Source of the DNA: Cryoendolithus antarcticus
Lineage: Eukaryota; Ascomycota; Dothideomycetes; Cladosporiales; Cladosporiaceae
NCBI GenBank assembly: GCA_002077065.1
Contig: NAJO01000021.1
Coordinates: 62,001-126,000 of the forward strand
Reading direction: 5' to 3'
Length of the DNA: 64,000 nt
The position numbers and the translations under genes are program-made. Shown one piece after another: positions 44,121 to 54,900 of this stretch. The notes beneath the pieces are model-generated. The model saw only the letters and a program-made list of their open reading frames with translations, ran no database searches and had not been told where the DNA came from. Within the stretch, counting starts at the first letter, position 1, and the number at the start of each line of letters is the position of its first letter.

Positions 44121-46042
44121 ATGCAGCTCAACCCCAAAGGTCGCGATTGGGGCGCAATTGTGAACTTCGACGACCTGGGCAAGCTGTACACGGTCCTGAT
44201 TGTCATATGGACAGCATGGCTATTCACCGGGATCGCATGGCTCATTTGGAACAGGAGGCTCCCTTTTGTCAGGATTCGACACCTCCCCGTCGCCATCATC
44301 TCAACACTATTCTTGCATATATATCTCGTCAAGATTATGATGGCGTACACCACAAATGGTCACTTTCTATGCTCCGCAGAGTTCTGGATCATGAGTGTGT
44401 ACCTGCCGTTAGGCATTGCTCTATTTCAAGCCAACTGCACACAGCTGCGCAGTATCGCAGAGCGGCAAGAGCGACTACTTGCGAGGCATGCATCCACTGA
44501 CAGTCAAAGTCCGCCGCGAAGTCTAAGTCTCGTGGGTCGCATGTGGACGCAGTGGAAGGATCTGTCGCAAGCACACAAGAGCTACGTCTTCATTGGCGTC
44601 GGCATGCTGGTCCAGGTAGGCAGTACGCAAGAGACTTCTCGATGGCTTACTGACATGCTCGAAGGTCATCATGACCGCGGCCATCTATGCGACGTCACCG
44701 GAGCTACAGGGCGACTGGTCCAGCTACGGCGACTTGCCTTACAACAGAGGTCAAGGCAAGTGCCGTAGGTCAGCGACATGGGTGCCTTCGGCCTTCTGGC
44801 AGTTGTTCTGGACGTGGGTATACGGTCCGTATGAGCTGTACAGGATCCGACACGTCCGAGACACGCACCACTGGCGTCTACAGACTATATTGTGCATAGT
44901 GGCTGGGTAAGCTCGCCTCGACTGACCTCGCTTTGACCTTTGACTGACACTTCCTCAGTCTACCGGGTACACCATTATGGCTAGGTGCGCTCTTCGCCAA
45001 CATTACGTTCAGACCTGTCAACAGGTGGTTTGTCCCACCAATGTGGCTAGCGCCAGGCATCATAGTCATGCAAGCCTGCACCATCGGCTTCCCAATCTAT
45101 GAGACCTTCGAATACAGCAAAGCCAAGCGTCAGCACGCCGATTCCTTGCAATCCGCGAGTACCATGGTTGGCTCAGTGGACTATGAAGAGAAGAAAGATT
45201 TTCGAGTGGAGCACTCCGCAGAGACACTGCTAACAGCCATCCACTCGCAATTCACAGGTCGGACTCTCTACTCCAAAGCGGCTTTGGACTTCGCCTTGCA
45301 TCAAATGTCGGCACCCCTCCTCCATTTCGCAGCAATCAAGGACTTCTCCGGCGAGAACATTGTCTTCCTCACATCTGTCATCCGCTGGCGAGCGGCCTGG
45401 GCTCAGGTACCCCGAGACGGCGCAACTGGAGCAATTGCCCCTGCTGCCCGATCACATCTGTTCTCGCTTGCACTGCAGATCTTCACGGAGTCAGTCCATG
45501 AAAAGACAGCAGAGTTCCCAGTCAATATCGAAGGCTACATCCGCAAAGATCTCCTCGCCATTTTTGAGCCTGCTCTCGCCGAGGAGAAGCGCTTGAGTGG
45601 CGAAAGCGGTCGGGCGAGAAGAGCGCACGCCGCTTTCGAGCACGGCGCACAGCAGAACGGCATCAGTCTCCGACAGATGCGAGCACACTCGCAACTCCGA
45701 TGGGATGCAAGCAAACAAGCCGCCACTACCACAAGAGGCACGAACGGCTCGTCCACAGATCTTATTGCGCCGCCATCACCGGATCAGAGGTCGGCTTCAC
45801 ACTTCGATTCTACTGCATCGACTCCATACGCAAATGAGCAAGATCCGTTCTCGTTCCCGCCACATCCTGCCGTTGCCCCCTTGGGTGAGCCAGAGTTGGA
45901 CGTGCCCGTGGAATTTGACGAGCGGGTGTTCGATGCGGCTGAGGGGAGTGTGAAGTATCTCGTGCTGACTAATACGTGGAGGAAGTTTATTGGGGTAGAG
46001 AAGAAGCAGTACGATAGTGTCAACAGCAGACCTGCAGTCTGA
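44121..46042 (+). CDS. Seven-transmembrane RGS-domain protein
   Basis: 606 residues from three exons (44121-44615, 44665-44906, 44959-46042; 49-nt and 52-nt introns, both GT-AG). Seven hydrophobic spans can be counted: LYTVLIVIWTAWLFTGIAWL, LPVAIISTLFLHIYLVKIMM, EFWIMSVYLPLGIALF, SYVFIGVGMLVQVIMTAAIY, AFWQLFWTWVYGPYELY, LQTILCIVAGLPGTPLWLG and MWLAPGIIVMQACTIGFPIY. They are followed by an RGS domain beginning about HSAETLLTAIHSQFTGRTLY and including ENIVFLTSVIRWRAAWAQ and IRKDLLAIFEPALAEEKRL, then a short disordered stretch. The C-terminal VKYLVLTNTWRKFIGVE restores a last RGS-like helix. Such proteins (fungal Rgs/GprK type, plant RGS1 type) combine a receptor-like domain with a GTPase activator for a G alpha subunit. 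The ligand is unknown. Confidence 0.88.
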
Positions 46043-48824
46043 GCTTTCGTCGGCCACAACGCTGCGTTAGATCAAGTGGCGCAGTCTGCTGTCTTTATGT
46101 GGGGTTGGTGTGGAGTCAGGAGTTCCAACGCTCACGAGCGGGTTGGGTGGGTGATTTATGTGTACCATACGCGCTATGAACATGCTTCATGAAGACGATA
46201 CCTCAGTCTATCTACCTCTTGCTCTCGTACTGCCTGTTCCGCAGCCACGTCGTCCGATGAAGGCCATGGCCCTCGGTGATCGAATCCACCTTGCAGTATT
46301 CCAGTTCCTTCGCCCTCCCGGATGGCTGGAGCGGCATGATCTTGCCATGCGTGCTGCTCGTGCACCTTTTCCGACTCTTGCCTGTAGAGACAACGCCCTT
46401 ATCTCGATTCAGCATGCGTGCGCGAAGATTGCACTTTCCAGCTTAGTATTATCTCCAAGTTCGCTTGTTATGCATACGGTTGGACGTCTTGGCCAATATC
46501 GGGGGTAGACTCTGCGAGGCGTTATCGCATCCACAGAGCGCTGGTCCCTCAGGCGTAGGACAGGGGCTTCTCTTCTCATCGCTATTATGGCCACATACTC
46601 ACGGCCTAGTCTCCTAGTCATTGCCGCTATCACGGACCTACTATGTCCTTGCTCGAGACCATTCTGAGGGACAGCTAGGAATGCACCAAGGATGTTGTTG
46701 GACCAAGATGTGATAGATTATGTGCTGTTCAGTAGACGGTTGCTAGTGCCGTGGTCAATCATAGTAGCTTGTAGGAGACGTGCTTGCCCTTGCCCGCCTA
46801 CGCCGAGTAACGTTGACACATGTGCAAGCTGCAGCCTGCCCGAGATCTTGCCATCTACTGCAGATACAAGCTCTCTTGATGTAGCCACAACGACAAAGAT
46901 CGGAGCAGAAAGGAGACGCACAGCAGCCAAGCTGCTGAATGATGGTGAATCTAAACTTCCCCTTGTCGTCGTCGCCACCGAGCCTGCTTTGCTGAACAGG
47001 ATCTTGGCGGCGCCGAGCTAATCTGGCCATGTTGCACAACACAAAGTTCTTGCTCACCTGAACAATGACAGCAAACATACCTTCCGCACCTGCTGTCTGT
47101 GCCTACGCCGCTTCATCACCTCTCCAGACCCTCCACGTCAACGACACACGTGGACGAAAGGGAGAGAAGCCAAGGAGATAAGCAATGGAAATGGTACTCA
47201 CCTTGCTCATCCTACGAGCTCAGCGAACGTGAACCCTCCGCAAACTGCCAACACTCGCCTCACGCCGCAACAATGAGCTGCTGTGACAAGGCAAATGCTC
47301 CCATCCGCTGCCGATCGTTGCATGAGCGAGATAGACGGCCCTCAGACAGAACCGCGGCGAAGCAGCAAGAGCACGGTCGATGGTTCTGCTGTACAAAGGT
47401 GGCCGTCATCAAGAAGCATACCGTCAACCACGCCGGGGTGTCATCAAAGCGTCAGGTGCATCTACCAGTCTATCGTCAGCAATGATCCAGATACGCGAAC
47501 TCACCTCACTCGACATCACTGGATGTCTCAATGGCTGGCTGCCAAACAACGCAGCTGCAATATCTTGCCAGCCTTACAAAGAAGCACACGTCCACGACTC
47601 CTAATCGGACTCCGATCAAGCATACTGATCAGAGCTAGCACATATCAACGAGCTCACCTTTGTTCTTGACCGGTGAGCCCTTGTCAGAGCCAGACTTCAC
47701 TAGAGTTCATCAACAACGAAACAAGCCCTTATCGGCTGCTGAACATAGCTACTGGCACTGGTCGCTCGTCCATCCTTCGTGGATAGCAACGGGTACGCTG
47801 ACGCTGCTTTGGGAACACTCAAGGCGCGAGACCAACGGTGAGCTCTCGCAGAGAGTGCCAGTCCACGCAGGCGGGCGTAGCCAGTCATCCACGGAAAGCT
47901 CCTTCATCGTGGGACAGCATGATGTTCAGCGCTGCAGCGTCCTGGTCCAGATCAGTAGTCATGCTCAGGTCCAGCACCTTCCACAGCTTCACACATAGCT
48001 GGCATGGCATACCTGATTGCAATGATGCGCGTCATCCACCACCACTGTCCCTGGGAGCAGGTCAAGGCAAGATCCATGTCGGCAGGTACATCCAGTACCA
48101 AAGAAGTCTCTAACACCTCTGACAGTGGTCCTTGCTCGCCAACAAAAAAGACAAACGGAGTCAGCCTCCTCAGTGCTACTCGGCGACGTGCGTGGCGGCC
48201 TTGTGAATTGAACTCCACCACTGCCTGGTATCGCTTGCTTGAGCATGAGCATCAGGAGGGTTCGTCTCATGCTTGAATGCCGAGCAGCGGTCCCGTAACA
48301 TGAAATTGAGTCTCGCTTTTCCAAAGCTCGAACAACACGCAAGCATCCCGAGTCAATACTTCGCGTTGATGGATCACCTCAGCACGAAGTTCCTCTCGGT
48401 GGCCAGTCCATCACCAAGATGGCGGCAATGGACACGACACATGCCCACAGGCATCCGGGTGCAAGAGAAGAGCGTGAGACCATACATACAGACAAGGACA
48501 GCATGGCTTTGTCGACAGGGCAGGCCGCAGAAAGATCTAAGGCTGTGTAGACTCCTCGCCACACAATACAAGCATAGGCTCTCCATATGCAGCAGCTGGG
48601 TGTGGCGGCGGCATATGCTCATACAAGGCTCTGTGTCGATGGTGAAGGCGCCAGAGCTTGCAGATACCAGACCAACGAGCTTAAGCTCACACACTGCCTA
48701 TGTGCACCCCTGGGTCCACTTCGGACGTCGACTAGATCCTGGCGCCGCGAGCACAAGCTTTGCATCGGGATATTGAGGACCTCTGGCGGCTGCCGATATT
48801 ATGGTCGAAACTTCTTGCGTTGCA
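46043..48824. other. Gene-poor stretch, left part
   Basis: No open frame here has a recognisable domain, and the longest are under 170 codons on either strand. Base composition is similar to the rest of the window, so this does not look like RIP-mutated transposon DNA. I see no LTR, terminal inverted repeat or transposase remnant. Confidence 0.5.
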
Positions 48825-48888
48825 CAGGGGCGGGATCGATGATCGATCCTCACTCAATACCAGCACCGGTGTTGAGTGCAAAGGCTCC
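48825..48888 (+). repeat. Three-way-junction repeat, copy 1
   Basis: Outer stem GGGGC/GCTCC (one G-T pair). Hairpin A is GGATCGAT-G-ATCGATCC (8 bp). Hairpin B is CACTCAA with TTGAGTG (7 bp), enclosing an inner CACCGGTG palindrome. Joining bases G, T, CAAAG. The sequence after the element resembles that after copy 2 (both reach CTTACTTA). Confidence 0.75.
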
Positions 48889-49060
48889 AAAGACGCGAGA
48901 TACTTGGGACTCTGGCCGTTGGTGACCGGTCTCGGCGGCGACGCAATGGCTACTTACTTAGTTGACGAGCATTTCGTAACACGCAACAATTGATGCGTCT
49001 CGGCACCGCCGCCGCCGAGCTCACTAGTAAGCGACACTGGTGCTGGAGACCCTTTGTCTA

Positions 49061-49129
49061 CGCAGGAGCGGGACCAGATCTGGTCCTCACTCAACACCAG
49101 CACCGGTGTCGGGTGTATAGGCTCTTGCG
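49061..49129 (+). repeat. Three-way-junction repeat, copy 2
   Basis: Outer stem CGCAGGAGC / GCTCTTGCG (one mismatch). Hairpin A is GGACCAGATCTGGTCC, a perfect palindrome that differs from copy 1 on both arms yet still pairs. Hairpin B pairs CACTC with GGGTG (one T-G), with an inner ACACC/GGTGT. Joining segment TATAG. Confidence 0.75.
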
Positions 49130-49300
49130 CCTCGAGGTGCACGCGACCGTCCTTGGCGACGACGAGATGGCGACTTACTTACCTAGGCGACGAGCGTCCC
49201 TCGATATGTACGAGCTGGCACGTCACTTGGTTCTTACAGGACCCTGGCGCCACCACCGAGACCACTTGCCGGTGACAGTCATATCTGAGACTCTTTGCCC

Positions 49301-49362
49301 TGCGCGGGAGCGGGATCGGAATTGATCCCCACTCGACTCATCGAGTGTAAAGGCTCCTGCGC
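49301..49362 (+). repeat. Three-way-junction repeat, copy 3
   Basis: Outer stem GCGCGGGAGC / GGCTCCTGCGC. Hairpin A is GGATC-ggaatt-GATCC. Hairpin B is CACTCGA-CTCA-TCGAGTG (7 bp). Joining bases G, C, TAAAG. The flank after it (TGCGCGGTCATCATGG) is shared with copy 4. Confidence 0.8.
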
Positions 49363-49513
49363 GGTCATCATGGACTGCGCTACGGTGTTGACGTTGGCGA
49401 TCGGGTCCATATCTCGCTCTGGTGCCCTTCAGGGCAACATGTCGGCCTATCACGACGGCATGTCGGCCTATCACTACAACAAGGGCAGGATGGCGGCCGG
49501 TGGTCGAAGCTTC

Positions 49514-49575
49514 GTGCGCAGGAGCGGGATCGATGACCGATCCTCACTCGTTCATCGAGTGTAAAGCTCTTGCGC
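49514..49575 (+). repeat. Three-way-junction repeat, copy 4
   Basis: Outer stem GCGCAGGAGC / GCTCTTGCGC. Hairpin A is GGATCG-atgac-CGATCC. Hairpin B is CACTCG-ttcat-CGAGTG. Joining segment TAAA. The same TGCGCGGTCATCATGG follows as in copy 3. Confidence 0.8.
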
Positions 49576-49860
49576 GGTCATCATGGGCTGCGCTATGGCG
49601 TTCGTGCGGCTCTCGGTGCAAGACCCTGCGCTGGAAGGAAAGGTGAGCAAGATCCGGCGCCATTAGCGCCACAAGCACGACCTACACAGCAACTACCGCC
49701 CACCATGGCGCCCATGGGCCCGCCATGCCCTGCAGACGAACGCCCCAGCCGCCTGAGCGTTGTGGCCGAGTTGAGGGATCTCGGACGCACCACACCGGAG
49801 CCAAGTGAGCTCAGGTAGCAAAGCACTATGGAGTGGGATGACAGCCCACCAGCTCAGTCG

Positions 49861-49929
49861 GCAGTCGCAGGAGCTGGACCAGTAATGGGTCCTCACCCGA
49901 CGTTCGTTGGGTGTAAAGGCTCTGACTGC
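49861..49929 (+). repeat. Three-way-junction repeat, copy 5
   Basis: Outer stem GCAGTC..GGAGC / GGCTC.GACTGC, a different sequence from copies 2-4 but still pairing. Hairpin A is GGACC-agtaatg-GGTCC. Hairpin B is CACCCGACG-TT-CGTTGGGTG (9 bp with G-T). Joining segment TAAAG. Flank GACTGCACC shared with copy 6. Confidence 0.8.
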
Positions 49930-50089
49930 ACCGTTGGGTCTGGCATCGCGGCCGAGAGCGTTCTCTTTTGCGCCGAGACTATGAGCTTGCGCGCCGAGCT
50001 GATCGAGCAGAGCATCGTCACGATATCCGCCGGCGTATGCAGCGAGTCGAGAAACGGCTTCATGAGTATGTAGGAACCCTGATCTGGCC

Positions 50090-50155
50090 GGTGAAGCAGG
50101 AGCGGAATCAGTGATTGATCCTCACCCACCTGGGTGTAAAGGCTCAGACTGCACC
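50090..50155 (+). repeat. Three-way-junction repeat, copy 6
   Basis: Outer arms GGTGAAGCAGGAGC / GGCTCAGACTGCACC pair imperfectly. Hairpin A is the weakest of the set (AATCA-G-TGATT). Hairpin B is CACCCA-CC-TGGGTG. Joining segment TAAAG. Confidence 0.7.
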
Positions 50156-50569
50156 TCTGGACGTGGCGTTGCGGCCGGGCGATTTCGTGTATGGTACACA
50201 GCAGCAAACCAGACAGCACGTGACGGCGCATGGTCAGATGAGACAGTACAAGCCTGCTGCTCGCCCTCGAGTCGGCTCTGGAACGGTTCGGAACCTTGAC
50301 CCGGAGAAGGACGCTGCGTACGCGAGCACCACTGAGTACTCGAACGGCTAAGAGCGGAGTTAGGATCGCCCGAAGAGCTCGATACCAGACAGGGGGCCGC
50401 CTCAACTCCACCGGCTCGTTCTGCTCGGCGAAGGAACTCAACATCGCCGGGCGCGGGCTTTCCTGGCCTCATCGGAGGCATGGCGTTTGGGCGTCCATCT
50501 GTGGTATGAGCGCTGCTTCTGCGGAAGGCATTGCCGCGCGCCGCTGCGTCCAGGCTTGCGGTCGATTAT

Positions 50570-50643
50570 GTCGGTGCAGGAGCGGGATCAGTCACTGATC
50601 CTCACCCAACATCGGGTGTAAAGGCTCCGCAATGGGCACCGAC
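50570..50643 (+). repeat. Three-way-junction repeat, copy 7
   Basis: Outer stem GTCGGTGC / GCACCGAC (8 bp, perfect) plus GGAGC/GCTCC. Hairpin A is GGATCAGT-C-ACTGATCC (8 bp, perfect). Hairpin B is CACCC-aacatc-GGGTG. Joining bases G, T, TAAAG. The 3' arm contains the ATG of the frame at 50632. Confidence 0.85.
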
Positions 50644-51108
50644 AACTCTGTCCGCTATTCGGCGCCGAGACAGGAACTACGAGCGCCAGGACCCTCTGTT
50701 CGCACCGCCGAGAACACGCCTGCGTTACCAAGCCGCAAAGTCTTCGCGTCAATGCTGGCGGACCTCATCGACTACGACCTCACTCGCGGCCTGCCTGAGA
50801 GCTCCGCCCAGCTCCGCAAGGCGCTTGAGAGTACCATCACTGCACTGCGTGGCGAGGAGCCTTCCGCCTTGATCAGTCTCGGCATCATCTGCAAGCACTG
50901 CGCGCGCTACGTCGACCCAGCGGCGCATTGGGGTGCTGGCCTGTGTCAAGTCTTCTCCGCTTCACGACGTCCACTCGAGCCCATGTCGCTGCAGTCCTTG
51001 TTGGTACTCATGGCGACATCACCGCCTAGATGGCGTGATTCGTCAAGATTCTGTTCCCTTCTCTTTCTGGGACCGGCAAGCGTCGCGGTGTCCAGTGGAG
51101 GCTCCTGA
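50632..51108 (+). CDS. Possible small gene or gene remnant after repeat copy 7
   Basis: An ATG-started frame of 158 codons. Residues about 40-105 (VFASMLADLIDYDLTRGLPE, SSAQLRKALESTITALRGEE, PSALISLGIICKHCARYVD) have protein-like composition, amphipathic helix patterns and mostly G/C third positions. The last 40 residues are less convincing, so an intron or decay may begin near 50945. I do not recognise any domain. Its ATG lies inside the right arm of repeat copy 7, so if expressed the repeat would be its 5' leader or promoter. It could equally be chance. Confidence 0.25.
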   Translation: MGTDNSVRYSAPRQELRAPGPSVRTAENTPALPSRKVFASMLADLIDYDLTRGLPESSAQLRKALESTITALRGEEPSALISLGIICKHCARYVDPAAHWGAGLCQVFSASRRPLEPMSLQSLLVLMATSPPRWRDSSRFCSLLFLGPASVAVSSGGS

Positions 51109-53300
51109 CGCTGCCGTTTCCAGTGGATTTTCATGGTGATCGGATTGGCGTGCAACGGCAGTGCATCGCGCAGAAATTTAGTGACGAGACATTATGGGGA
51201 TTCGAAGGAATGTAGAGTGTTCGCTGGTGGTGAAAGGACTCAGTCATGGCGAAAAGCTGATTGGGGAGCTCAGCGGTGGACATGGGTAGACTTGATCGCG
51301 AGACTATGAAGTCGGAGAGGAGGATGTTGGAGCCGAAGGTGCGTCGAGTGGTGGTAGGAAACTTGCAGGGGAGCGTGAAGGGCCTGTCACTGCCTCAATC
51401 GAGAGACGTGACCATCAGGAAAATCACTGTCTTGTCGCAAGCTCGGCAGCACACGATATGGGTCCAAGGTATTTTCACCACCGGCGTCGATGTCTGATCT
51501 TTTCGAAACTCTCCCGCATGCTGCCAGTCGACAGACGCAGTGTCTCGGAGCGCGATAAGTTTGCTGGTGCGGTGAGTGTAATCCGGATTGCCACTCCAGC
51601 CTCTACTCGAGCGACAAGCTCAGTACATGATCACCTCGCTGATCGTTGCGCGGAACGGACTGGTGGAGTGGTCGAGGTCATGTCGGCGCGTATGGTCAAC
51701 GCCAGTGTCGCCTCACCGTCACAGCAGAATGGCGGCCGCCTTGACCGTCACATATTACAGGCCCATCCTGCAACAACCTCTCTTCTCACAGTCATGGCAC
51801 CCTCGACTGGATCCGCGCGATTCAGTACTGCGCAGCATAATCTTGTTGTTGCAGCCGAGCGAAGGGTGTCGTTTCGAAGGTTAGACTGACAGCGAGGAGA
51901 TGAAGTCAGCTCATAGCGGACGCAACATCAAGTCTGCGTCATCAGACAAGTTATGGGAGAGGCTCGACGTCAGTCGTGTGCGAGGTACCCCAAGTGTTGA
52001 TGTTGGTGTCCAAGGTACTGGAAACTCAAGGTGGTGTGCGGCATTTGGAGCTCGAAGCTCGAATCCCGACTAAGTCCGCAAAGTCGTGCCAAGCGTTCCC
52101 TCGACACCACGCTCTGCGACTACAAACCTATACACAGAGCTCTCACCAACAGATCATATGCAGCGAGGCAAGTTCGTGTCATACTCTGACGCCTCCAACT
52201 GCCAGCATCTCGACACCTACCTCCATGGTCATGTTCTGGCCGATGACGCTCGAACTCCGACAGCTCGGCGACTCCACCAATGTTTCCCACGAGTGAGGTC
52301 GACTTTGGCTCGGCTGACTCAATCACATCCCTGCATCAGCGACGGCTGATCCGCAGTAGCGTTGACCTTATTACTGGTCTGCTCCGCAAGTGCACGGTAG
52401 AAGGCAGAAGGCGGTGTGATTGCTGCGACGACTCTGCTCAAACGGACGACAACATAATATGCTTCACGTAGTCTTGCGAGAACAATACAGGGTTCTGTTG
52501 ATTACTCGTCTTGCTGGTGAAATTTCTGAGCGTTTTACTTGTGTGCCGAGTACGACACAGCTACTGGCGTCTGCTCTGTTGTACGCTTGGAGCAGTGGGC
52601 GTACGAGAATCCGAAGCAACGGTCTCAAGTCACAAGTCTGCAGCCACTCGTGTCGACGCCTCGAAGCTCGAGCGCCAGGTAGTTCTGGAGTCTTCGAATT
52701 ACAGCCCATGAGTATATAATGTCGCTCGGAAACGTTCCTTTAAGCCCTCAGGTCTTTAGCAGCGATAGGGACCACTAGTGAGCTACAACCAACATGCCCA
52801 TAGCTGACTACAACTTGTTCCGTGGAGAAGGTATGCCACGTTCTCTCGTGAGAACATGAGGTGTCAAGGCTGTCTACCAGCTGGATGCATGCCAGGAGTG
52901 CTCGTCGAGCAAAGCTCTGACATGAGCGACCCAACAAGTAGACGACATGCGGACACATGTTGCAACAGTCTAATGGCAGTGTCGTGAAAATCAATTTCAG
53001 TATTCGATGTGCTTATGATCCGAGCAACTGTTCGTACACTATCGTACACGCCTTCCACGCAGCCCTCCATGCCCTCCGATACCTCAGTACTCGCGCTCGA
53101 TGCCATCCCGTGAAGATGCTGACGGCTTCTCCTGCCATACCACAGCACTTCCGCGTGGCTCTTCGCGCCTCGTGCAGCCTTTGCGATCTACACATCTCTC
53201 CACTCCGTCCCGCACATCCGCCCTGTCGCTCACTTTCCATCAACGACGCAGCGTCTCAGCATCATGTTCCATTCCTCCATGACCGTAATGCCTCCATCAT
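51109..53300. other. Gene-poor stretch, right part
   Basis: No recognisable gene, RNA or transposon. No further copy of the structured repeat was seen. Only short frames on both strands. Confidence 0.5.
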
Positions 53301-53541
53301 CTACTGCGCAAGCGGGCTGAAGAGTCTGATCAAGCTTGGTCTCGGGTTGCTGCGGGTGTATCCGAGCCAGAGGATGAGAGGGAGGTAGCCGTAGTGTACA
53401 CCCATGCGTGAGTAGTCGATCAGAGTTGCGATGCGCTCCTACATCTTGTCAGTATGCTTGGATGAAGACGATGTTGGGAAGGGGGGAGGGGTGGTGTTGT
53501 ACTTTTGTCTCCTCGGAGAACTGAAGCGTGGGCCACTGCAT
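53301..53541 (-). CDS. TOM7: Mitochondrial import receptor subunit Tom7
   Basis: 58 residues from two exons (53541-53503 and 53438-53301; 64-nt intron GTACAA...ATGTAG with an ATACTGAC branch point, phase 0), too short to stand out as one open frame. Exon 1 encodes [13 protein letters not shown]; exon 2 continues [35 protein letters not shown] and [10 protein letters not shown]. This matches fungal Tom7, a single-span outer-membrane protein that tunes assembly of the TOM complex: a short acidic/basic cytosolic part (S-E-E-T-K-E-R-I), an HYG turn before the membrane span, and the R-P-S-L-I-R-L-x-S-P-L-A end. The ATG context (ccaccacgATG) is good. The start lies 230 bp from that of SF3B4 on the other strand. 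Confidence 0.92.
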
Positions 53542-53771
53542 CGTGGTGGTGGTGTCCGAGAGTGTTTGAGACGTGCTTCGGAGTCTCGATGAGTTACAGC
53601 TGTGTTCGGAAGTGTGGAGGATGGCTCGGGGGTGTCATAAGTGCTCGGCCATCGTTTGAAGCACTGAACGCGAGTCATGTACCGCGAGAACATATGCAGA
53701 TCAACCTCCCACTCCCACATCCTCGACAACTCTACAACATTTCCTAAGCAAAACCTCGCCATACCGCGATC
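53542..53771. promoter_or_regulatory. Divergent promoter, TOM7/SF3B4
   Basis: 230 bp between the two start codons; both genes are housekeeping. No specific element identified. Confidence 0.5.
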
Positions 53772-54900
53772 ATGGCGTCCGGTCGTCACTGGTACGTTCT
53801 TCCCTACCCACCAATACCCTGCACGATCGCTTACTGACAACATGTCCAGGGAACAAGACAAAGACTCCACGCTCTACATCGGCAACCTCGCCGAACAGAC
53901 CACCGACTCCCAAATCTGGGAGCTCCTCCTCCAAGCCGGGCCGATAGTCAACGTGCACCTCCCCAAAGATCGCGTCACCCAGGTCCACCAAGGCTATGGC
54001 TTCGTCGAATTCGCCTCAGAGGAAGACGCAGACTATGCGTGTAAGATCATGAACCAGATCCGCCTCTGGGGGAAGCCGATACGAGTGAACAAGGCTTCTG
54101 CGGACAAGAGACTTGGCCCAGGAGGGGTGGAAGAGGGAGGCAGGGGAGTGGGAGCAGAGTTGTTTGTGGGAGGACTGGATGGGATGGTGGACGAGAGGGG
54201 CTTGTTCGAGACGTTCAGCCGGTTTGGAGCACTGATGGCGCCGCCGAAAGTCGCACGGGATGAGTCAAATCTCAGCAAGGGGTACGCGTTCATCAGCTAC
54301 TCGTCTTTCGAAGCAGCGGACGATGCGATCGCGAATATGCATGGGCAGTACCTCATGAACAAGGAGGTTAGCGTACAGTACGCCTTCAAGAAAGACGGCA
54401 AAGGGGAGAGACACGGCGACGCTGCGGAACGAGCTCTTGCAGCTCAAGCAAAACGGCACAACATCGAAGTCGCCATACCCGCCATGCCCGCAGCTCTGGT
54501 CCTACCGACCGGCACGCCCACCGCACCTTCAGGACTCGGCGGCAACGCACCTCCGGTCCGCCCTCCAGCGCTGCCAGCAGGCTCCTACGGCGCAATGCCA
54601 CCTCAGTCGCCCTACGGCGCTCCTCCACAGTCTCCTTATGGTGGCTTCGCGCCTCCACCGCAGATGCAGAGCTATGCGCCGCCTCCGAGTCCGGCGGGGC
54701 AGGGCTATGCGTTCCCTACAAGAGCTCCGCCTCTGCCTTTTGCGCCGCCGCCGATGATGGGAGGAGGGCAGCAGAAGCCGTTTGCGGCTAGTCCACTACA
54801 GGCTCCTCCGACTGCTGGACTGCCGCCGAGACCGCCGCCTAGTGCGTTTCCGCCACCACCGCCGCCGGGGGCGCATCAGAATGGTGGGTATGGCAGGTAA
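53772..54900 (+). CDS. HSH49: Splicing factor 3b subunit 4 (SF3B4/Hsh49)
   Basis: 356 residues from two exons (53772-53791 and 53850-54900; 58-nt intron GTACGT...GTCCAG with a TTACTGAC branch point, phase 2). The 20-nt first exon gives MASGRH and two bases of Trp. RRM1 has RNP2 LYIGNL and RNP1 QGYGFVEF (about residues 13-90); RRM2 has RNP2 LFVGGL and RNP1 KGYAFISY (about 102-180). The C-terminal half is rich in Pro, Gly and Tyr ([13 protein letters not shown] and similar), as in SF3B4 of animals and filamentous fungi. The protein belongs to the SF3b part of U2 snRNP and contacts pre-mRNA upstream of the branch point. The upstream open frame to 53677 reads through the intron and should not be used. 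Confidence 0.95.

Follow-up and report, generated by a model that had tools for sequence, protein, structure and literature searches.

A Tandem Array of Diverged Three-Way-Junction Elements Alternating with Gene Fragments in an Antarctic Fungus

A region of 2.5 kb in the genome of the Dothideomycete Cryoendolithus antarcticus (Cladosporiaceae) holds, at one ancestral locus, seven diverged copies of a discrete tandem element that is able to form hairpins and has been slower to change than its flanks. The reading favored here, tentatively and with somewhat less than even confidence, is that of a single noncoding locus whose three-way-junction modules would be structured units recurring along a noncoding RNA and let it act as a scaffold or decoy for protein binding. 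Noncoding loci with repeated structured modules are known; as far as the searches reach, the motif, the host, and the alternation with scraps of genes are unreported, and a narrow literature search found no published account of such an element. The window, by which is meant the whole stretch of 64,000 nucleotides that was analyzed, lies on contig C64 of an assembly of 46,965,068 bases in 149 contigs.

Seven Copies of a Three-Stem Element

The array occupies positions 48822-50635 of the window. As the initial annotation stated, seven copies lie on the same (plus) strand, each with an outer stem enclosing two hairpins; their starts are 214-480 nt apart, and the three-stem cores measure 48-62 nt. 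The aligned core consensus, GGAGC-G-GGAYC..GRTCC-T-CACYC..GRGTG-TAAAG-GCTC, to which individual copies make exceptions, comprises the outer stem GGAGC/GCTC, hairpin A (GGAYC/GRTCC), hairpin B (CACYC/GRGTG), and the five-base strand TAAAG. Copies 1 (48822-48895, core 48827-48888; 70.1 bits in cmsearch) and 2 (49060-49132, core 49065-49125; 68.6 bits) are followed by copies 3 (49302-49364; 68.7 bits) and 4 (49516-49577; 66.1 bits), and these by copies 5 (49865-49930, core 49870-49923; 75.3 bits), 6 (50094-50153, core 50099-50146; 67.7 bits), and 7 (50574-50635, core 50579-50628; 75.7 bits), the last with the outer stem GTCGGTGC/GCACCGAC. An unfiltered scan of positions 46000-54000 revealed no eighth full copy.

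The stem variants listed in the annotation were all confirmed. Hairpin A reads GGATC/GATCC in copies 1, 3, 4, and 7 and GGACC/GGTCC in copies 2 and 5; hairpin B reads CACTC/GAGTG in copies 1, 3, and 4 and CACCC/GGGTG in copies 5, 6, and 7, and copy 2 has the U-G intermediate CACTC/GGGTG. Hairpin B is 5 to 11 bp long (11 bp in copy 1), and its pairing in 12 of 12 copies at this locus and the homoeologous one, despite that range, is counted in favor of a structured-RNA module. An inner A.C mismatch in hairpin B is found in copy 2 and in the homoeolog of copy 2. The A.C mismatches in core stems, which occur in copy 6 (hairpin A) and in the homoeologous copies h2 and h5, are counted against such a module. 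Among the joining bases, the first G is replaced by T in copy 5 and the T by C in copy 3; the five-base strand is CAAAG in copy 1 and TATAG in copy 2, and copy 4 is one base short at TAAAG/GCTC, where junction and outer stem meet.

TRF did not report the array, and an insensitive DNA search with copy 4 as query matched only copy 4 itself and copy 3. The G+C content is 61% over window positions 49001-51000 and about 55% immediately around. Beyond the array on its downstream side, at a distance of about 3 kb, is a gene with RNA-recognition motifs (53677-54900).

The genome-wide search for further copies used patterns, which could miss strongly diverged copies, and the covariance model was applied to chosen loci. 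Over the 47 Mb of the genome a strict pattern gave five matches, all inside this array and its homoeologous counterpart. A 3' half pattern gave nine, all in the same two arrays (reversed control, 0); a loose 5' half pattern gave 20, of which 10 fall in the arrays and 10 outside (reversed control, 11). With a 14-base pattern allowing one mismatch, which is insensitive, there were at least 311 matches versus at least 298 in the control; among the matches listed for it, eight exact ones lie outside the arrays, and one of these, on C57, was examined. At nine of the 10 off-array places, one place from the 14-base pattern, and the twelve source loci of the gene fragments described below, the covariance model scored at most 11.3 bits, versus at least 65.6 bits for true copies. 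The mobile hairpin element that the annotation had entertained is not supported by the genome pattern search, which uncovered only two homoeologous arrays and no dispersed copies. Copying inside the array did occur. Where neighbors have flanks in common, these resemble one another about as closely as the elements do, which is counted against an RNA module. The element pattern had 0 matches in prokaryote and viral collections. The annotation's view that the element is not a tRNA or another fungal RNA known to it is supported, with no match in Rfam at the gathering threshold or at E<=1 and no tRNA or tmRNA match by ARAGORN.

In the window, the array is not spanned by any open reading frame of 150 aa or more; ORFs of 183 aa and of 158 aa lie in parts of it, and each frame is interrupted by stops in at least one of the two loci. 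The lack of a spanning frame and of additional copies by pattern is counted for a noncoding-RNA module. Coding exons were rejected as an explanation, there being no single frame across the array that is backed by substitution patterns and stops. Spliceosomal introns were also rejected: by eye, neither strand shows a consistent GT...AG pair flanking the elements.

The Homoeologous Array and Constraint on the Cores

An array of the same order lies on the minus strand of contig C67. Copies 1, 2, 5, 6, and 7 are intact there, and one truncated remnant stands in place of copies 3 and 4. The surroundings of the array match between C64 and C67 at 78-90% identity; this match, together with the pairing of the source loci of the spacer fragments, indicates a duplicated genome, and the arrays are therefore taken as homoeologs. 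The sequence comparisons are best explained by an array locus that would predate the split of the two subgenomes. The alignment of the homoeologs is nearly lost at window positions 52500-53270 (42-62% per 100 bases), with conserved stretches on either side, which suggests a replaced or inserted segment.

The C67 remnant lacks hairpin A, and its hairpin B, read from its letters, pairs poorly; the state of this truncated copy is counted for a structured-RNA module. Since two copies have been lost at the homoeologous locus, copy number is not fixed, and this is counted against it.

In the five pairs of intact copies, 24 of 275 aligned core sites differ between the loci, versus 129 of 600 in matched flanks 16-75 nt away from the core (Fisher p=2e-6). 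Core divergence is thus 2.5-fold below that of the adjacent flanks, and the element looks constrained; modules more conserved than their spacers, as found for these five copies, are a feature of repeat-based scaffold lncRNAs. By class, the changes fall at 5 of 140 conserved stem sites, 5 of 52 in loops, 9 of 48 at distal stem ends, and 7 of 54 in columns outside the core. The stem columns were picked on the same alignment, so that the stem count is biased low; the whole-core count is free of that bias. The joining nucleotides, which the annotation called nearly constant, are not measurably constrained between homoeologs: they changed at 6 of 35 sites, about the spacer rate, and this too is counted against an RNA module.

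It may be asked whether the arrays are simply neutral remains, that is, old local palindromic duplicates that drift, with a low core divergence that arose by chance or local gene conversion. The loss of copies in the homoeolog fits such a history, as does the similarity of flanks common to neighbors. The core-versus-flank count in the five pairs, however, makes neutral decay unlikely, and pairing has been preserved in the arrays while the broken C67 copy has decayed.

Folding, Strand, and Covariation

RNA folding of each copy was compared with that of 200 dinucleotide shuffles. On the plus strand, six of the seven copies have z-scores between -3.79 and -7.08 (-5.29, -4.24, -7.08, -4.93, -3.79, and -5.59 for copies 1, 2, 3, 4, 5, and 7), and 0 of 200 shuffles were as good. 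A stable structured module in tandem copies, also a feature of repeat-based scaffold lncRNAs, thus holds for six of seven. Copy 6 folds no better than its shuffles (z -0.56, 47 of 200 as good), and the minus strand of the copies folds well too (z -1.61 to -5.94); both results are counted against an RNA module. Of 12 bare cores (seven here and five homoeologous), 10 are more stable as the plus strand, copy 3 and h2 being the exceptions; this is counted for an RNA module on that strand, and an informal count of wobble pairs favors the plus strand only slightly.

Beyond GAGC/GCTC the outer stem is weaker, with flanks that pair better than 95% of the genomic background in six of 12 copies from both loci. 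Re-pairing of the outer stem was set aside as weak proof: when flanks were swapped among five families, the true pairing ranked 21, 5, 40, and 15 of 120 in four representative sets.

The annotation had argued chiefly from coordinated changes on both arms of the stems. Against a tree-aware null, pairing over 15 pairs is 97.2%, versus 92.7% expected, and 2 of 400 null replicates paired as well; with distal pairs added (19 pairs), pairing was as good in 3 of 400. Under the same null, there is no significant excess of branches changed on both sides (1.0 versus 0.41 expected, P 0.36), nor are pair-breaking branches significantly few (5.0 versus 6.8, P 0.16). The covariation check that the annotation itself proposed did not yield a significant pair. 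With an R-scape-style null written as our own script, not R-scape, and with the little power afforded by twelve sequences, no single pair of 20 covaries significantly; the best, columns 16-26, has E=0.095 and was outscored by eight non-pairing column pairs. The covariation sum over the structure lies inside the null (7.6 versus 0.5, sd 6.7).

A second test, in which a shuffle of 500 replicates ignored relatedness, gave mixed results. Paired cells (94.1% versus 91.7%, 3 of 500), double-changed cells (11 versus 5.3, 0 of 500), and the covariation score (0.209 versus 0.155, 2 of 500) exceed the shuffles; pairs with a double change (4 versus 3.0, 157 of 500) and further pair types (10 versus 10.4, 439 of 500) do not. 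Coordinated change was therefore overstated: pairing has been kept beyond the tree-aware null, but no single pair is significant. The lack of a significant covarying pair, of an excess of paired-change branches, and of a significant deficit of pair-breaking branches is counted against an RNA module, and the first of these also agrees with neutral drift. What survives of the proposal of a structured RNA is the fold in six of seven copies, the constraint, and the kept pairing; covariation above phylogenetic background is not supported by these twelve sequences.

Gene Fragments in the Spacers

Decayed pieces of six further loci, A-F, lie in the spacers; five of these are gene-derived, and all five are in sense orientation relative to the elements. 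Fragments A-D were detected with the window array as query, and E and F were added with the homoeologous array as query; in the window the latter two are visible in local comparison only (E=0.003 and 4e-8, respectively). The source of each fragment is a homoeologous pair of loci. Those of B and E share a contig pair, on which they are at least 200 kb apart, and the other sources lie on different contigs; among the source contigs are records with B0A48_11854 and B0A48_07554 of C. antarcticus.

All fragments are given on the plus strand. Fragment D, from the start region of an ORF of about 750 aa (C117/C73) that has some relatives named as leucine-rich-repeat proteins, occurs in sense at 48926-49026 and again, after element 2, at 49143-49206. 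Fragment A (49674-49853) derives from a gene on C71/C57, of which it is the 5' end, start codon included; by our reading it corresponds to the first exon. Fragment E (49951-49998), the 3' end of a 300-aa ORF (C95/C63), is weak here and strong in the homoeologous array. There it consists of six tandem 21-nt units that lie between copies 5 and 6 (minus strand, about 7745-7880 of L008), an expansion that the window lacks, and a similar unit recurs in the source ORF around the stop codon. Fragment C (50187-50273) comes from inside a bHLH protein gene (C24/C13). Fragment F1 (50291-50388, strong part 50298-50353) derives, with internal gaps, from exon 1 of an amino-acid permease gene (C139/C58), and F2 (50894-51092, strong part 50894-50921) from part of exon 2 of the same gene, so that element 7 sits between two parts of one permease pseudogene. 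Fragment B (50700-50861) comes from sequence lying past a CPL/PUF-domain gene (C63/C95) on its 3' side, runs in the direction opposite to that gene, and is non-coding by its substitution pattern. As a protein it was rejected: a 149-aa minus-strand ORF has neither relatives nor a purifying pattern.

The similarity of fragment F ends with exon 1 of the permease gene. A permease intron in the array was considered and withdrawn: the alignment past exon 1 scores 27.0, versus a shuffled maximum of 29.6. The score of the intron alone was reached by 124-252 of 300 shuffles, and that of the start of exon 2 by 16-102 of 300.

The fragments contain stops and differ from their sources by about 6-27%. Their unequal closeness suggests capture at several times, with dating that is rough. 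Three control stretches (2,701, 2,501, and 3,001 bases; 8.2 kb in all), unmatched for G+C and palindromes, held no fragments and matched only themselves and the homoeologous contig. Within the array, 49365-49680 likewise matches only itself and the homoeologous contig, apart from a tail common to copies 3 and 4.

The fragments bear on a different explanation, in which the elements act as DNA: cruciforms or single-strand hairpins would break DNA or stall replication, and repair would insert templated pieces of other loci. The presence of fragments from six loci in these spacers, and of none in the unmatched controls, is what such an array would leave; the good folding of both strands, the non-coding character of fragment B, and the position of element 7 between F1 and F2 also agree with it. 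Yet DNA hairpins alone do not explain the constraint on the cores, and capture and constraint could be unrelated. With the permease intron not recognizable in the array, the scraps could have come from either DNA or RNA. Repair also gives no reason for five gene-derived fragments to share one orientation (by chance, about 1 in 16). The DNA explanation is doubtful, to about the same degree as neutral drift.

The shared orientation would be accounted for if the locus were a source of small or antisense RNA, with minus-strand scraps antisense to five genes and the hairpins as processing signals. The longest uninterrupted matches per source gene, 18-59 nt over both arrays and 12-31 nt in the window array, point the same way. 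The better folding of the plus strand in 10 of 12 cores and the 6-27% departure of the fragments from their sources, with no sign of a kept match, leave this source quite improbable. Likewise improbable is a multi-target regulatory array, built up by successive capture of host-gene pieces, in which these and the constrained branched hairpins together yield RNA that acts in trans against the source genes.

Discussion

On the favored reading, that of a structured noncoding RNA, the array would be transcribed from the plus strand as repeated modules of a longer RNA. The copies together may bind an RNA-binding protein at many places, by analogy with repeat-based lncRNAs, and so act as scaffold or decoy. 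The spacers between modules would be free to gain and lose scraps of other genes.

If the array is transcribed, it would represent a new multicopy structured RNA motif in a rock-dwelling Antarctic fungus whose duplicated genome offers a built-in comparison. Should it work at the DNA level instead, its succession of hairpins and pieces from six loci would preserve a natural history of breakage linked to the hairpins and of templated repair.

To our knowledge, repeat-based scaffold RNAs are poorly known outside animals. In the cassette arrays of integrons, folded attC sites alternate with genes, much as folded sites alternate with gene pieces here. The present array differs in being a nuclear fungal locus with scraps rather than whole genes and with another fold, and its element pattern has 0 prokaryote matches. 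Helitrons in fungi are reported to capture gene fragments (PMC4289320). The likeness lies in host-gene pieces gathered at one place; unlike such capture, the present case yielded no dispersed copies.

The repeat regions of Xist and the repeats of Firre are repeat-based scaffold lncRNAs whose tandem structured modules are thought to bind proteins (PMC8062979). Xist and Firre are transcribed and have named protein partners, whereas for the array transcription and protein binding are putative, the fold is a three-way junction, and the host is a fungus; the tandem structured modules are what they have in common. In fission yeast, meiRNA sequesters a protein through repeated binding motifs that are short and linear. 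The array resembles meiRNA in being fungal and built of repeated motifs, and differs from it in that each motif is a branched hairpin.
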